In this document: one piece after another, positions 6,302-28,023 of the stretch
Layout: every line of letters begins with the position of its first letter
Position numbering within the stretch: position 1 is the stretch's first letter
NCBI GenBank assembly: GCA_002686955.1
Contig: NYZA01000197.1
Coordinates: forward strand, 1 to 28,023
Length of the DNA stretch: 28,023 bases
DNA from: Gemmatimonadota bacterium
GTDB lineage: Bacteria; GCA-2686955
Direction of reading: 5' to 3'
The notes under the pieces: model-generated
What the model saw: only the letters and a program-made list of their open reading frames with translations
Told to the model about the DNA's origin: nothing
Databases searched by the model: none
Program-made: the position numbers and the translations under genes

Positions 6302-6388
6302 CTCGGATCTCGATTGGGAGTGGTGAGCTGGGAAATCGAGGCAAAGGCAATGATAGCGTGGCCGTGGACCGAGAAGATTCGTCGAACA

Positions 6389-6487
6389 CTGACGTTTCGA
6401 CATAAGCGTGGGATCCTCGGGAGGACCGCGCATTGGCGGGCGGAGAGCCGTCGTTCCTGGCCAGGCAAGCCCAGCGGCTCCTCTCGG
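6389..6487 (+). repeat. Left terminal inverted repeat (copy A)
   Basis: This 99-bp repeat is matched by the reverse complement of 10657-10755 with only four differences, all within 40 bases of the outer end. It contains the perfect palindrome CCTGGCCAGG (6456-6465) inside a wider stem CGGAGAGCCG / CGGCTC, so it can fold into a hairpin. Similarity to the other copy stops abruptly after CTCTCGG at 6487. Confidence 0.9.
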
Positions 6488-10656: not shown

Positions 10657-10755
10657 CCGAGAGGAGCCGCTGGGCTTGCCTGGCCAGGAACGACGGCTCT
10701 CCGCCCGCCAATGCGCAGTCCTCCCGAGGATCTCACGCCTATATCGAAACGTCAG
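10657..10755 (-). repeat. Right terminal inverted repeat (copy B)
   Basis: This is the reverse complement of copy A with four mismatches over 99 bp. The outer end reads TATATCGAAACGTCAG and is followed at once by TCGAACA, the same 7 bases that precede copy A. It contains the palindrome CCTGGCCAGG and the pairing arms GAGCCG (10664-10669) and CGGCTC (10694-10699). Confidence 0.9.
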
Positions 10756-10770
10756 TCGAACACACCGATC

Positions 10771-22915: not shown

Positions 22916-23444
22916 CGCATCATCCCCTTCTCTAGTGGAAGGGAGGAAGGCCAGGTTCCCCCGATCCGCAAGTGCCGCGGCGGGATCGGGGCGAGAAAAA
23001 GCGGCTCGGCGAGCATGCATCAGGTTCTCCGTTGAGGCCCTATGGGAGCCCGCGCGGGAGTCTTCGTTACCGATTCGAGCAATCGGTCGATTCGCGGAAT
23101 CCCCTCTCTAGTTGCATCGGCTTTTCCGGGAGGAGCCTCCAACGCTTTTGGCCATGCACTGCGATTGAGCACGGCGATGGGATCGTACGTGCAATTCGAA
23201 ACGGAGTACGCTAACCTGCTCAGCACGGCAGTTTGATTCCATGGGTCATCCTCATGGATCCTTCCCGCCATCTCTGGGGCGCGCCGCAAAGGCGCATACG
23301 GCTGTGCCAAACTTCGCAGCCGATTGCGTGAAATGGCGCCCACCACGGCGAGGGAGGCAAAAGATGCTCGAACACCGCTCAGCGGTGATGGCCATAAGCC
23401 CTTGAAAAGCAACAGCTTGAATACTGAAAGCCGCGGGACGATCG
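22916..23444. other. Intergenic region upstream of the polysaccharide export operon
   Basis: I see no supported gene. Small palindromes such as GGAGG AG CCTCC and CCATG / CATGG (23239-23257) occur. Because a sigma54-type promoter lies at the right edge, this stretch is where enhancer sites for an activator would be expected, but I could not identify a convincing repeated operator. Confidence 0.4.
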
Positions 23445-23459
23445 TGGCACGCAAGTTGC
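23445..23459 (+). promoter_or_regulatory. Sigma54 (RpoN) promoter of the polysaccharide export operon
   Basis: TGGCACG (23445-23451), CAAG, TTGC (23456-23459). The invariant GG and GC are separated by exactly ten bases and the flanking bases match the known -24/-12 consensus. Transcription would start near 23471, about 48 bases before the GTG of the Wza-like gene. A sigma54 promoter implies control by an enhancer-binding activator. Confidence 0.7.
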
Positions 23460-23518
23460 CTATCGCTTCCGCAACCGACATCGGCGCTCCGCGAAGAGGG
23501 CGCTGGGGGAGTTTGATC

Positions 23519-24169
23519 GTGAGATCGACCGTTCAGAAATCATCGATGTGGACCGCGGCACTGATCGTGCTGCTCTCTCTCCTCGGAGCGAGGAGTGCCC
23601 ACGGAGATGAATATGTGATCCGTGGAGGAGACGGGATCTCCATCAAGGTCATGGATCACCCCGAGTTCTCTCTCGGTTCGCAGGTTCGGCCGGATGGAAT
23701 GATCAGCTACCCGCTTGTCGGCGATGTGTTCGTTCGTGGTTTTACGCCGCGACAACTGTCCGAGATCATCGCGGAGAAGATAAGGCCGTACGCCAGAGAT
23801 GCGGTGGTAACGACCTACGTCAACAGCTTTTTCAATACGAGGCTCTCGATCCAAGGGGCCGTGCGGAGCCCCGGCGCGTTTCCGCTCTTCGAGCCGATCT
23901 CGATCATCGATGCTCTTACCCTCGCGGGTGGAGCGATCGATCAAGAGGTCAAACGCGTTCGCGTATTCAAGAGCACGGGAGAGATCCGCAACATCTCACT
24001 CGAATCGGTCTGGAAGAGCGAGGGCGACATCCGAGAGAGAGAGGACTTGCTCCTCTATCCCAACGATGTTCTATATGTTTATGAGAACTTCAAGTTCAAA
24101 TGGCATTACTTGACCAACAGCGTATATCTCCTGGCGACGAGCTTGTTCATCTACGATCGTTTCTCGTGA
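23519..24169 (+). CDS. Wza-type polysaccharide export protein (outer membrane)
   Basis: A 216-residue exported protein. A signal peptide covers about residues 1-29 (core MWTAALIVLLSLLGARSAHG). The poly_export domain follows, with YVIRGGDGISIKVMDHPEFS, VRPDGMISYPLVGDVFVRG and TPRQLSEIIAEKIRPY, and then an SLBB-like domain (LSIQGAVRSPGAFPL, SIIDALTLAGG). Residues ~198-212 (SVYLLATSLFIY) form a C-terminal hydrophobic segment like the membrane helix of Wza. There is no lipobox cysteine. GTG 23519 is chosen because GGGGGAG lies seven bases upstream and it opens directly into the signal peptide. With the kinase gene 76 bases downstream it forms the export pair of a capsule or exopolysaccharide system; no glycosyltransferases are in the window. 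Confidence 0.85.
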   Translation: MRSTVQKSSMWTAALIVLLSLLGARSAHGDEYVIRGGDGISIKVMDHPEFSLGSQVRPDGMISYPLVGDVFVRGFTPRQLSEIIAEKIRPYARDAVVTTYVNSFFNTRLSIQGAVRSPGAFPLFEPISIIDALTLAGGAIDQEVKRVRVFKSTGEIRNISLESVWKSEGDIREREDLLLYPNDVLYVYENFKFKWHYLTNSVYLLATSLFIYDRFS

Positions 24170-24245: not shown

Positions 24246-26420
24246 ATGGGTCCAGACAGACGAAGACTCCATGGTAGCAAGCAGATCGAGATCGACGGTC
24301 TGAAAGACCCGTTGGATGCCGACGCGGGTATGTCAGACCTACTCGGAGGGGGTGGTCGCGAGGCCGGCACCTTCGATATTCGCCACTACCTGGCGATGGT
24401 GAGGCGGCGCTGGCGACTCATACTCGGTGTCGCGCTTCTCGGTCTTGCGATAGGTGGTTGGCACGCAGTCTCGGAGCAGGAGTTCTACCGCTCCCAGACC
24501 CGACTCCTTCTCGAGTCCGGCGGTGGGCTGGTCGTCATGAACCAGAAGCTCACCTACGTGCCCTCGCAATCGATGAACACCTTCGTTGAGATTCTCAGAA
24601 CAGAGAACGTGTTGAAGAAGGTGCTGACGCGACTGAATCTCCCAATGTCCGCGGCCGAATTGCGATCCCATATCGAGTTTACGCCGCAGCATCAAACCAA
24701 TATCTTGCAGATCGCCGTCACGCACCCGCAGCGGGAGCTGGCGCAGAGCATCTGCCGCGAGGTTGCGGCCGTGGCGGTGGACGAGGTCGATGCGATCTAC
24801 AGCTCGTCGACCGGCGGGGCGTATCAAACCCTCGGAGAGCAGTTGGAGAAGACCAAGATTCAGCTGATGAAGGCTGAGGAGCGGATCAAGGACTTCGTGC
24901 GAAGCAAGGGCTATCGCAATCTGAAGAACGAGAACAGTGCTCGCCTCAGCCGCCTCTCGTCGCTCACGAATACCTACAACGATTCTCAGGTGAGCATCCG
25001 CGTCGCCGAGACCGGCCTCGACTACGAGGCGGCACGCCTTGCGATGACCGACTCCCTCATCGTGAAGGAGGCGACCTACTCGACTCCTCTCCACGTGGAG
25101 ATCATCAACCTCGAGACGGAGCTGGCGAAGCTCCTCACGAACTACACCGAAGAGCACCCGAGGGTACGCTCGCTCAGAAGGAGTGTCGACCGCCTACGTT
25201 CCATGATGGAGTCCAACACGGAGCGTGGCGTGCGGGTCGAGACCAGGGCGGTCAATCCGATCCGGCAGGATCTGGTCCAGCAGCTCGCGCAGGGACGCAC
25301 CCAGGTCATGCGTGAGAAGGCCCGGCAGAGCGAAATCCGCCGCCTGATCAACGAGATCGAAGAGCGCCTGCGCACCGCCCCCGAGGACAACCTGGCGTTG
25401 GCGCGTCTGGAGCGCGAAAAGGCCGGACTGGAGAACACCTACTTCTCGATGCTCCGCAAGTACGAAGAGGCCCGCATGGTGAAGGAGACCGCGCAGGGGA
25501 ATCTGCAGATTCTCGAAGCCGCGGACATCTCTCAATCGGTGCAGCCGAACATGATCCTCATGATGATCGCCGGGTACGTGCTCGGCGGCATCGTTGGCGG
25601 AGTTTTGGCACTCGTCATCGAGAACCTCGATCCGAGAGTCAAGTTCAACGCGCGGATCGAGCGGCAGGTTGGAACCCCGATCGTTGGTGTGATCCCCCGC
25701 TTCGAGCAGGACGAGCGCTACGTCGACTTCTCCAAGCCGCGTGCGCGCATCGCCGAGGCCTACAACATCGTTCGGGCCAACATCGAGTACTCCTTCCCCA
25801 AGCGCGACTCCTGGAGCCTGGTCATCACATCCGGATTCCAGGGCGAAGGCAAGACCTTGACCGCGGTCAACCTGGCGAGGTCGATGGCGGTCGACGGTCG
25901 CAAGGTCGTGTTGATCGACGCTGATCTTCGCCGGACCTACTTGCACCAGATCTTCCTTCTGGAGCGCGATGGCGGGCTCTGCGAGTACCTCTCCGACGAG
26001 TTGACGGCCGATGAGATCCTCAAAGACACCGAGATCGGTGGCTTCAAGGTGATCACGGCTGGGCGCCAGCCGGTGAATCCCGCGCGCCTACTCAACTCCG
26101 AGCGCTTCGATCAACTCCTCGAGCATCTGCGGGCCAACGACTACTACGTGATTATCGACTCCCCGGCCGTGCTTCCGATCGTCGATACCTCCCTGATCGC
26201 GTCGCGCGTAGATGGGCTCCTCCTCATTCTGAAGGAAGGGGCTACACAGCGGCACACGGCACAAAAGACGGTGGAGCGCCTGCGCCGTGTTGGAGCGAAC
26301 TTCGTCGGGGCACTTCTGAATAGCGCATCCGAGAGCGGCTTCGGCTACTACCACTACTACGGCTACCGCTACACCGAGACCTACGGGTACGCCGAAGAGG
26401 CGGCCGAGGTCCAGGCCTGA
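24246..26420 (+). CDS. Wzc-type polysaccharide co-polymerase / BY-kinase
   Basis: A 724-residue inner-membrane protein that sets polysaccharide chain length and cycles through tyrosine autophosphorylation. A Wzz domain surrounds the first membrane helix (WRLILGVALLGLAIGGW, ~56-72). A long periplasmic coiled-coil region follows, then the GNVR-like segment and second helix (MILMMIAGYVLGGIVGG, ~436-459). The cytoplasmic kinase has Walker A SGFQGEGKT (Lys536), Walker A' VVLIDADLRR and Walker B YVIIDSPA. A tyrosine-rich tail with eight Tyr within 17 residues (near 700-716) is the phosphorylation cluster. The P-loop has Gln where Pro is usual. It lies behind the Wza-like gene, presumably on the same sigma54-driven transcript. 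Confidence 0.92.
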   Translation: MGPDRRRLHGSKQIEIDGLKDPLDADAGMSDLLGGGGREAGTFDIRHYLAMVRRRWRLILGVALLGLAIGGWHAVSEQEFYRSQTRLLLESGGGLVVMNQKLTYVPSQSMNTFVEILRTENVLKKVLTRLNLPMSAAELRSHIEFTPQHQTNILQIAVTHPQRELAQSICREVAAVAVDEVDAIYSSSTGGAYQTLGEQLEKTKIQLMKAEERIKDFVRSKGYRNLKNENSARLSRLSSLTNTYNDSQVSIRVAETGLDYEAARLAMTDSLIVKEATYSTPLHVEIINLETELAKLLTNYTEEHPRVRSLRRSVDRLRSMMESNTERGVRVETRAVNPIRQDLVQQLAQGRTQVMREKARQSEIRRLINEIEERLRTAPEDNLALARLEREKAGLENTYFSMLRKYEEARMVKETAQGNLQILEAADISQSVQPNMILMMIAGYVLGGIVGGVLALVIENLDPRVKFNARIERQVGTPIVGVIPRFEQDERYVDFSKPRARIAEAYNIVRANIEYSFPKRDSWSLVITSGFQGEGKTLTAVNLARSMAVDGRKVVLIDADLRRTYLHQIFLLERDGGLCEYLSDELTADEILKDTEIGGFKVITAGRQPVNPARLLNSERFDQLLEHLRANDYYVIIDSPAVLPIVDTSLIASRVDGLLLILKEGATQRHTAQKTVERLRRVGANFVGALLNSASESGFGYYHYYGYRYTETYGYAEEAAEVQA

Positions 26421-26505: not shown

Positions 26506-28023
26506 GTGAAGACGATCCCTAGACCTATCAGCGAAGAAGAGCAGAGTATTCGTGAGCGGTGGATCACCCGGCTGGGTCGGTGCCTCGCTCTTTCTGCGTC
26601 CCTCGCAGCCCTGCCGACCGGAGCGGTCGCCCAGATCACCTCGTTCGCGCAGCCGGACACCACGGGTGCACCGGCGATGTCGGACCGCACGGTGCAAGAG
26701 GTGGAGTTGGAGCGGGAAATGGCCTCGCGCATCGAGGCGATGGTCGGCGAGATGATCGGCGAGCACCGCGTGCTCGTGTCGGTAGATCTCGATGTGGCGC
26801 GCTGGAAAGTCGATGCGGCGCTCGAGGGCACGGCTCTGGATCCCCTCGCGTCTCTGCCCGGCCTTCCCGTCGCCAGATCGCGAACGGTGACCTCGGCCCG
26901 AAGCCGCTCCAGCATTTCACGAATCCAGGTTCAGGTTTTTCACGAACCGGATCTGGATCCCGGCTTGGCGCTTCAGATCCGCTCGATGGTTCCTGTCTGG
27001 GCCGGGCTCGATCTGGATCGCGGAGACGTCGTCGATCTGCGGCCCCTCGATTTCGACACCTCGCTCGGATCCGCGGAGCGAAGCCGGCTGCTCTATCTGG
27101 CGGCGCTGGGTGTGTTCTTGGCGGCTCTCATCTTGCTCAGCCTTTTCCTCATCCTTCGCGCCATCGGGCGGAAGGCCGGTCCCGGAGAAGAAGAGGACGC
27201 CGATGCCGGCGCGGATATGGATCTGTCCGGCATGGGCTTGGCGGATGAGGCCGGTGGTGGCGGCGAGGGCGATATCGGTGAGGCCAAGCTCACCGAAACG
27301 GAGCCGGAGGCCATGACACGAAACGCGATCGTTCCGATTCAGGAACGTACTTTCTCCTTCCTCAAGGCTCTAAGCGACGAGCAGATGCTGGGCCTCTTGA
27401 AAGACCACGAAGCGCATGAGATCGCCGTAGTGCTCACGGCGCTGCCGGGTGATCGGACCGCTGATCTGCTTTCCGGATTGACCCAGGATATGCAGGGGCG
27501 TGTCATGGAGGAGATGGGCCGCGGTGTTCGTGCGAGCTCGGCCGATCTACGTGCGCTCAGAGAGATTCTGCAGGGCAAGTTGGATACGGAGATCCTCAGG
27601 CCCGACGAGGTCGCGATTGGCGGCGAAGAGGTGTTTCGATCGGTCATGTCGCGGGTGGACACATCCACCGCCAAACAGTTGATCGATGCTCTGAAGATCC
27701 GCAATCCGGAGCTGGCGGCGATCGCCAAGGAGGAGGTCTTCCTCTTCGAGGACGTGCTCGTGCTCGACGAGGTCGCGATCAAACACATCATCGGCTCCAT
27801 GGAGCTTTCCAGCCTGGCGCCAGCCCTCAAACGGTCACCGCGCGAGATCAGGGAGAAGTTCTTCCGCAATTGTTCCGAGCGGGTGCTCGAGATGCTGGAA
27901 GAGGAGCTCGAAGTTTTGCCCTATCAGTCCGATGATCAGGTCGCTCAGGCGCAGCTCGGCGTGGTTCACGCGGCGCGCGCTTTGATCGCCGCCGGTCGGA
28001 TCTCCGCGCCAGGCGCCCGCGCC
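26506..28023 (+). CDS. Membrane-anchored FliF-C / FliG hybrid protein (3' end beyond window)
   Basis: An open frame of 506 codons runs from GTG 26506 (GGGGGGAAG upstream) to the window end without a stop. Residues 1-42 look like a signal peptide (core LALSASLAALPTGAVA). Residues ~66-183 resemble the FliF/YscJ C-terminal periplasmic domain: ASRIEAMVGEMIGEHRVLVSV with VDLD, and later AGLDLDRGDVVDLRPLDF. A membrane helix follows (LLYLAALGVFLAALILLSLF, ~195-217), then an acidic Gly-rich linker (222-265). From ~282 on there are FliG middle and C-terminal domains (FLKALSDEQMLGLLKDHEAHEIAVVL; then EEVFLFEDVLVLDE and LAPALKRSPREIREKFF). The FliG N-domain, which normally binds FliF, is absent, as are the first two FliF ring modules. 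The family motif LDDRSIQ reads LDEVAIK. Function is unknown: a ring or rotor-like scaffold, flagellar or not. Confidence 0.75.
   Translation, partial: MKTIPRPISEEEQSIRERWITRLGRCLALSASLAALPTGAVAQITSFAQPDTTGAPAMSDRTVQEVELEREMASRIEAMVGEMIGEHRVLVSVDLDVARWKVDAALEGTALDPLASLPGLPVARSRTVTSARSRSSISRIQVQVFHEPDLDPGLALQIRSMVPVWAGLDLDRGDVVDLRPLDFDTSLGSAERSRLLYLAALGVFLAALILLSLFLILRAIGRKAGPGEEEDADAGADMDLSGMGLADEAGGGGEGDIGEAKLTETEPEAMTRNAIVPIQERTFSFLKALSDEQMLGLLKDHEAHEIAVVLTALPGDRTADLLSGLTQDMQGRVMEEMGRGVRASSADLRALREILQGKLDTEILRPDEVAIGGEEVFRSVMSRVDTSTAKQLIDALKIRNPELAAIAKEEVFLFEDVLVLDEVAIKHIIGSMELSSLAPALKRSPREIREKFFRNCSERVLEMLEEELEVLPYQSDDQVAQAQLGVVHAARALIAAGRISAPGARA

Follow-up and report, generated by a model that had tools for sequence, protein, structure and literature searches.

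Does a gene that joins a FliF-like periplasmic module to FliG, and lies beside polysaccharide export genes, belong to a flagellum, to an export system or to another machine? The question is raised by the last gene of the window, by which we mean the whole stretch of DNA analyzed (28,023 nucleotides), identical to contig C197 of genome G000 (4.28 Mb in 270 contigs, 84.5% complete). The reading we favor, at a probability of roughly 0.68, is that the gene encodes the subunit of a minimal, non-flagellar rotor, which would be driven by MotAB, have neither export gate nor rod, and move surface proteins or type IX-type secreted proteins.

The fused gene and its parts

The gene is an open reading frame on the forward strand that begins with GTG at position 26506 and meets no stop up to the contig end, which falls inside the gene, so that the sequence stops short of the final residues and the stop codon. 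Because the contig end cuts the gene, its right-hand neighbors cannot be read from the window. The relevant features are as follows.

23324..24169, + strand: Wza-like outer-membrane polysaccharide export protein, Poly_export and SLBB domains (Pfam/profile matches)
24246..26420, + strand: Wzc-like chain-length determinant/tyrosine autokinase, ending 85 bases before the rotor gene (domain matches)
26506..28023, + strand: fused rotor gene, with signal peptide, FliF RBM3-type module, membrane helix, acidic linker, FliG_M and FliG_C (Pfam, PDB, profile comparisons, GC3)
26506..26631, + strand: predicted signal peptide, residues 1-42, a hydrophobic stretch followed by AVA-Q (sequence)
26680..27060, + strand: FliF RBM3/beta-collar-type periplasmic module spanning about residues 59-185; carries the family's LPGLP and RGD motifs (profile, alignment, PDB and Pfam comparisons)
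27085..27168, + strand: membrane helix, about residues 194-221 (hydrophobicity; also a helix in an otherwise poor structure model)
27169..27333, + strand: acidic, Gly-rich cytoplasmic linker, standing where FliF has its tail and FliG its N-domain (sequence)
27340..28002, + strand: FliG_M and FliG_C, residues 279-499, torque helix LDEVAIK (Pfam, TIGR00207, PDB)

A frameshift, named beforehand as a conceivable error near 27200, or a chimera joining two genes is ruled out by the open frame, by an even GC3 (0.75/0.75/0.77 across the N-terminal part, linker and FliG part) and by the identical architecture in other genomes; the other two reading frames contain 12 and 8 stops.

The C-terminal part exceeded the curated Pfam cut-offs for both FliG_C (92 bits, E 3.5e-26; cut-off 23.3) and FliG_M (31 bits, E 3e-7; cut-off 25), and the best PDB match of the window protein was FliG (1lkv, E 1.9e-25, residues 280-500). 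The TIGR00207 FliG model matched residues 278-499 with 124 bits, which is under its equivalog cut-off of 226.7. An identity as MgtE_N only was rejected, since MgtE_N reached 24.4 bits, under its own cut-off, while the two FliG families exceeded theirs. From these matches we regard the FliG identity of this part as certain. The FliG N-domain had been called missing, and PF14842 (FliG_N) indeed scored only 17.8 bits against a cut-off of 25 in the window protein, overlapping FliG_M. Comparison with FliG also bears out the reported change of the torque-helix motif from LDDRSIQ to LDEVAIK; the charges are kept only in part and drift across the family in the alignment of fused proteins. In the FliG tree the window FliG forms a long branch whose placement is unsure.

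A stronger test was needed for the FliF part because PF08345 (FliF_C) alone scored the window protein at only 10-12 bits (E 2.27 in the genome scan; E 0.25), below calling level. Residues 42-221 matched a profile of 41 FliF-like C-regions, whose genes lie immediately before fliG, at E 3e-13 (best of 200 shuffles, 0.42), and the N-terminal parts of 18 proteins of the fused architecture, one from a partial gene, matched FliF with an hhalign probability of 98.9% and E 1e-17, where the 41-member set includes the split-operon RBM3 gene described below (L072/L035 = G055, and L063 = G329) and is not purely flagellar. A search of the N-part profile against all PDB sequences therefore served as the independent test, and it returned the flagellar FliF M-ring at 5.7e-7 and SpoIIIAG at 3.8e-6, the next unrelated match being at 0.75. 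PF08345 was the sole Pfam family matched by more than one member (11/13 family members). The suggested FliF_C module thus stood in the profile comparisons and fell short when PF08345 was applied to the window protein alone.

The absence of the two N-terminal ring modules was confirmed: Pfam gave no YscJ_FliF match in the window protein, which has no RBM1, RBM2 or first membrane helix, and RBM3 is preceded by nothing more than the signal peptide and some 20 residues. By these comparisons the FliF part is real, and RBM3 is the sole FliF ring module present. The FliG part follows the signal peptide, a periplasmic stretch of about 140 residues, a single membrane helix and the acidic linker, and the one-chain order proposed at the outset holds, with FliG placed by Pfam and PDB and the FliF part by profiles. 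A single-sequence structure model was poor (pLDDT 47.6) and uninformative on the N-terminal part.

Relatives, stators and flagellar genes

A profile scan of 386 diverse genomes, with follow-up, found the fusion at 16 more loci, distributed among nine genomes belonging to other lineages (G044, G060, G069, G074, G124, G209, G214, G339 and G343), several of which carry two or three copies. The fused proteins begin with a signal peptide or a hydrophobic stretch, followed by RBM3 (with a motif resembling LPGxP), the membrane helix and FliG. Pro118 and Gly119 of LPGxP are invariant in alignment A2 (17 rows, the window protein and the 16 further loci), and RGD is kept in most. By recurrence with both shared motifs, the fusion is no accident. 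Some members carry C-terminal TPR-like repeats or an additional membrane helix; in one subgroup, by reading, the TPR-like repeats stand past FliG_C (L084:8303-10237; L088:6629-8785; L091:153-2222). The fusion was not found in G001 (83% complete). The comparison covered one other genome of the window's phylum. Other contigs scanned for the profile gave only two actinobacterial FliG genes, and a search of viral contigs for relatives that would deepen the alignment found none.

A split version occurs in G055, where MotA, MotB, a signal peptide-RBM3-membrane helix protein and FliG are encoded by four consecutive genes, and the region upstream of FliG in G329 resembles it. The fused FliG of G044 and G060 groups with the split-operon FliG in the FliG tree (support 98/97). 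G044 has one isolated MotA-MotB pair, and its MotA groups with the split-operon MotA in the MotA tree (support 99/99), in agreement with where its fused FliG falls. The FliG tree does not support one origin for all fused proteins; it requires three changes.

MotA, with MotB where the contig continues, lies directly after the fused gene or one gene later in 11 loci (L085, L086, L087, L088, L090, L091, L092, L093, L094, L095 and L098), while no MotAB adjoins it in four loci with readable flanks (L042, L052, L089 and L100). The MotB-like proteins carry MotB_plug and OmpA domains, and in the inspected stators, among them the one on contig C40 of the window genome, the Asp of the MotB plug can be seen. 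FliM/FliN, rod and export genes were not noticed at the fused loci.

Further arrangements were seen around the rotor genes. Two consecutive MotB-like genes follow one MotA in several rotor operons (L087:4711-6150; L093:4571-5910; L095:939-2278), raising the possibility of a MotB heterodimer as stator axle. One subgroup encodes a long coiled-coil, proline-rich protein between rotor and MotA, or just past the rotor (L088:2715-6626; L091:2225-6070; L084:10306-11646). A lipoprotein-like gene with C-terminal TPR lies directly upstream of the fused rotor in two genomes of one phylum (L042:11790-12764; L052:12852-13883); on reading, its product presumably has a PEGA-like start. G124, besides its flagellar FliF/FliG, has one fused rotor followed by a separate extra FliG-like gene and MotA-MotB, and a second without adjoining MotAB (L098:9586-11956; L100:8263-9918).

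FlhA was absent from 7 of the 10 fusion genomes (G044, G069, G074, G209, G214, G339 and G343; 91-98% complete), and the same search detected it in G000, G060 and G124. In the seven FlhA-less carriers the profile scan found no stand-alone FliG besides the fused ones; in G060 and G124 the fusion and flagellar components are both present. At the level of sequence, independence from the flagellum is shown, as are homology, recurrence and, in relatives, linkage to MotAB.

The window genome itself has a flagellar set. Its canonical FliF and FliG are on contig C51 and its FlhA is on C89, where the genes, named from sequence and gene order, run MotA-MotB-FliL-FliM-FliO-FliP-FliQ. A second MotA-MotB pair, distinct from this flagellar order, is found on C40, which begins at the contig edge with FlbD, MotA and MotB, followed by an FG-GAP/CHU_C gene (CHU_C domain near threshold, 26.3 vs 27 bits), a PorP_SprF/PorV-like barrel with TPR, and an LCP-like, glycopolymer-transferase-like gene. 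The C40 MotA forms a long branch without a settled position in the MotA tree. The other MotA_ExbB matches inspected in G000 we take, by reading, to be ExbB/TolQ-like, and the only MotA-type match of G001 adjoins FliL. The C40 pair is probably the stator of the window rotor. That C40 continues C197 is plausible on circumstantial grounds; in an end-overlap test for joining contigs, the matches were short and attributable to chance, and none involved C40.

The predicted rotor and competing explanations

In the proposed machine, the signal peptide would export the fused protein and its one membrane helix would anchor it. The RBM3 modules are predicted to oligomerize into a periplasmic ring, like the RBM modules of FliF and SpoIIIAG, and each subunit would bring FliG_M/FliG_C into the cytoplasm, so that a C-ring-like torque surface would be joined covalently to the membrane ring. 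Fixed to the peptidoglycan, MotA5MotB2 stators (in the window genome, probably the C40 pair) would push the FliG_C ring and so turn the periplasmic ring. The machine would include no flagellar rod, hook or export gate, and its load would probably lie in the envelope or at the surface; the likeliest candidates are PorV/SprF-type outer-membrane proteins together with large surface proteins secreted in type IX fashion, as happens in gliding or secretion. Ring formation, rotation and the load or cargo are what we infer. A stripped-down ring or switch-like assembly had been among the readings first offered, and it is the best supported, the chain recurring beside MotA/MotB in unrelated lineages, and also in genomes without the flagellar export gate. 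A divergent flagellar basal part, offered alongside it, is less likely because G000 carries separate normal FliF, FliG, FlhA and MotAB.

A related explanation makes the protein an accessory rotor of the cell's own flagellum, a truncated FliF-FliG fusion forming an inner or second ring and sharing the flagellar stators. The flagellar FliF, FliG and FlhA of G000 would allow this, as would G060 and G124, which also have both, and engineered FliF-FliG fusions form rings according to two reports (PMC11481574, PMC6079021). Against it stand the seven carriers without FlhA and stand-alone FliG, the position of the gene with Wza/Wzc and not with flagellar genes, and the second, non-flagellar MotAB pair of G000; we consider it unlikely.

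The original prediction correctly named Wza/Wzc genes as the neighbors, and these raise the alternative of a rotating or static ring coupled to Wza/Wzc export, one that would, for instance, power or gate the release of polymer or slime-based gliding. Both genes lie directly upstream on the same strand, the Wzc-like one ending 85 bases from the rotor gene, and C40 carries the LCP-like gene. Polysaccharide export genes, however, stand beside the fused gene in the window only; none were noticed in the relatives examined, where MotAB and PorV-family genes recur. A link to polysaccharide secretion is conceivable but improbable; the recurrent neighbors agree better with movement of surface proteins or with secretion of the type IX kind. 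A relic or non-motor scaffold, that is, an ion-independent ring of recycled flagellar domains with a coincidental or otherwise employed MotAB neighborhood, would suit the drifting torque-helix residues and the four loci without adjoining MotAB, but is very improbable given intact frames, motifs conserved over great divergence, MotA/MotB adjoining most loci and the retained MotB Asp.

Known systems and the type IX-type link

The MotAB-driven rotor shares its parts with the flagellar motor, and the complete machine is predicted; no description of it, or of any system with this layout, was found in the open-access literature, which mostly excludes subscription papers and preprints, in agreement with the novelty first claimed. 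With the flagellar FliF and FliG rotor it shares homologous RBM3, the following membrane helix and FliG_M/FliG_C, and MotA/MotB adjoin the fused genes of relatives. It differs in having the FliF and FliG parts in one chain, which in the window protein comes without RBM1, RBM2, the first membrane helix and FliG_N, in the FliM/FliN-, rod- and export-free appearance of its loci, and in seven carriers without FlhA. SpoIIIAG, matched by the N-part profile, offers a likeness as a ring-building module. It has no FliG domain and acts in sporulation. The Myxococcus Agl gliding motor (AglRQS) is MotAB-like, ion-driven and flagellum-free, and we know of no FliF/FliG-derived rotor for it. Engineered FliF-FliG fusions (Vibrio FliFG, Salmonella) are likewise one chain (PMC11481574, PMC6079021); they are laboratory-made from flagellar proteins, include RBM1/RBM2 and are still flagellar. 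One engineered structure, 8z4d, was among the PDB matches of the window protein.

The type IX secretion/gliding system of Bacteroidota (GldLM, SprA, SprB, SprF, PorV) is resembled in that many carriers have PorV and PorP/SprF barrels, a CHU_C-type domain and SprA homologues. Upstream of the fused genes in relatives, PorV-family barrels and large secreted proteins are often found, and the FG-GAP/CHU_C and PorP_SprF-like pair on C40 resembles the F. johnsoniae neighborhood in which sprF adjoins the sprB adhesin gene (PMC9127263). The motor genes linked here are instead MotA/MotB and a FliG-bearing ring; GldLM resembles MotAB but is not homologous to it, according to a review (PMC13104615). Among 13 genomes tested, SprA matches were obtained in G000, G001, G055, G329, G069, G074, G209, G214, G339 and G343 and weakly in G124, with no match in G044 and G060. 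The secretion link is loose because G044 and G060 carry the fusion without SprA, and G001 has a SprA match although the fusion was not found there. The type IX-like link is the weakest step of the argument and rests on the PorV/SprF neighbors and on SprA homologues in most carriers.

One review (PMC9127263) counts no more than three proton-motive rotary motors, namely the Fo ATP synthase, the flagellar motor and the type IX secretion system. If the favored reading is true, a flagellar-type rotor and stator without an export gate would add another, the flagellar torque module would prove separable, and there would be a testable handle on whether that module predates the flagellum or split off from it. 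The reading further offers a candidate motor for type IX-like surface systems outside Bacteroidota. More tentatively, at somewhat under even odds, several lineages may have a further class of ion-driven rotary machine, a MotAB-turned FliF-RBM3/FliG ring without a flagellum that would fill the role of the Bacteroidota GldLM in moving surface proteins or in type IX-type secretion, and that possibly resembles the flagellar motor as it was before its union with the export apparatus.

Two minor observations were made in passing. SprA-like proteins of about 1,700-2,070 residues occur in many lineages (L145, on G000:C17; L146, L147, L149, L150 and L152), including rotor genomes without FlhA. In the window, two 100-base arms at positions 6388-6487 and 10657-10756, which are 96% complementary and lie 4.2 kb apart, form an inverted repeat that may be a dispersed intergenic element.
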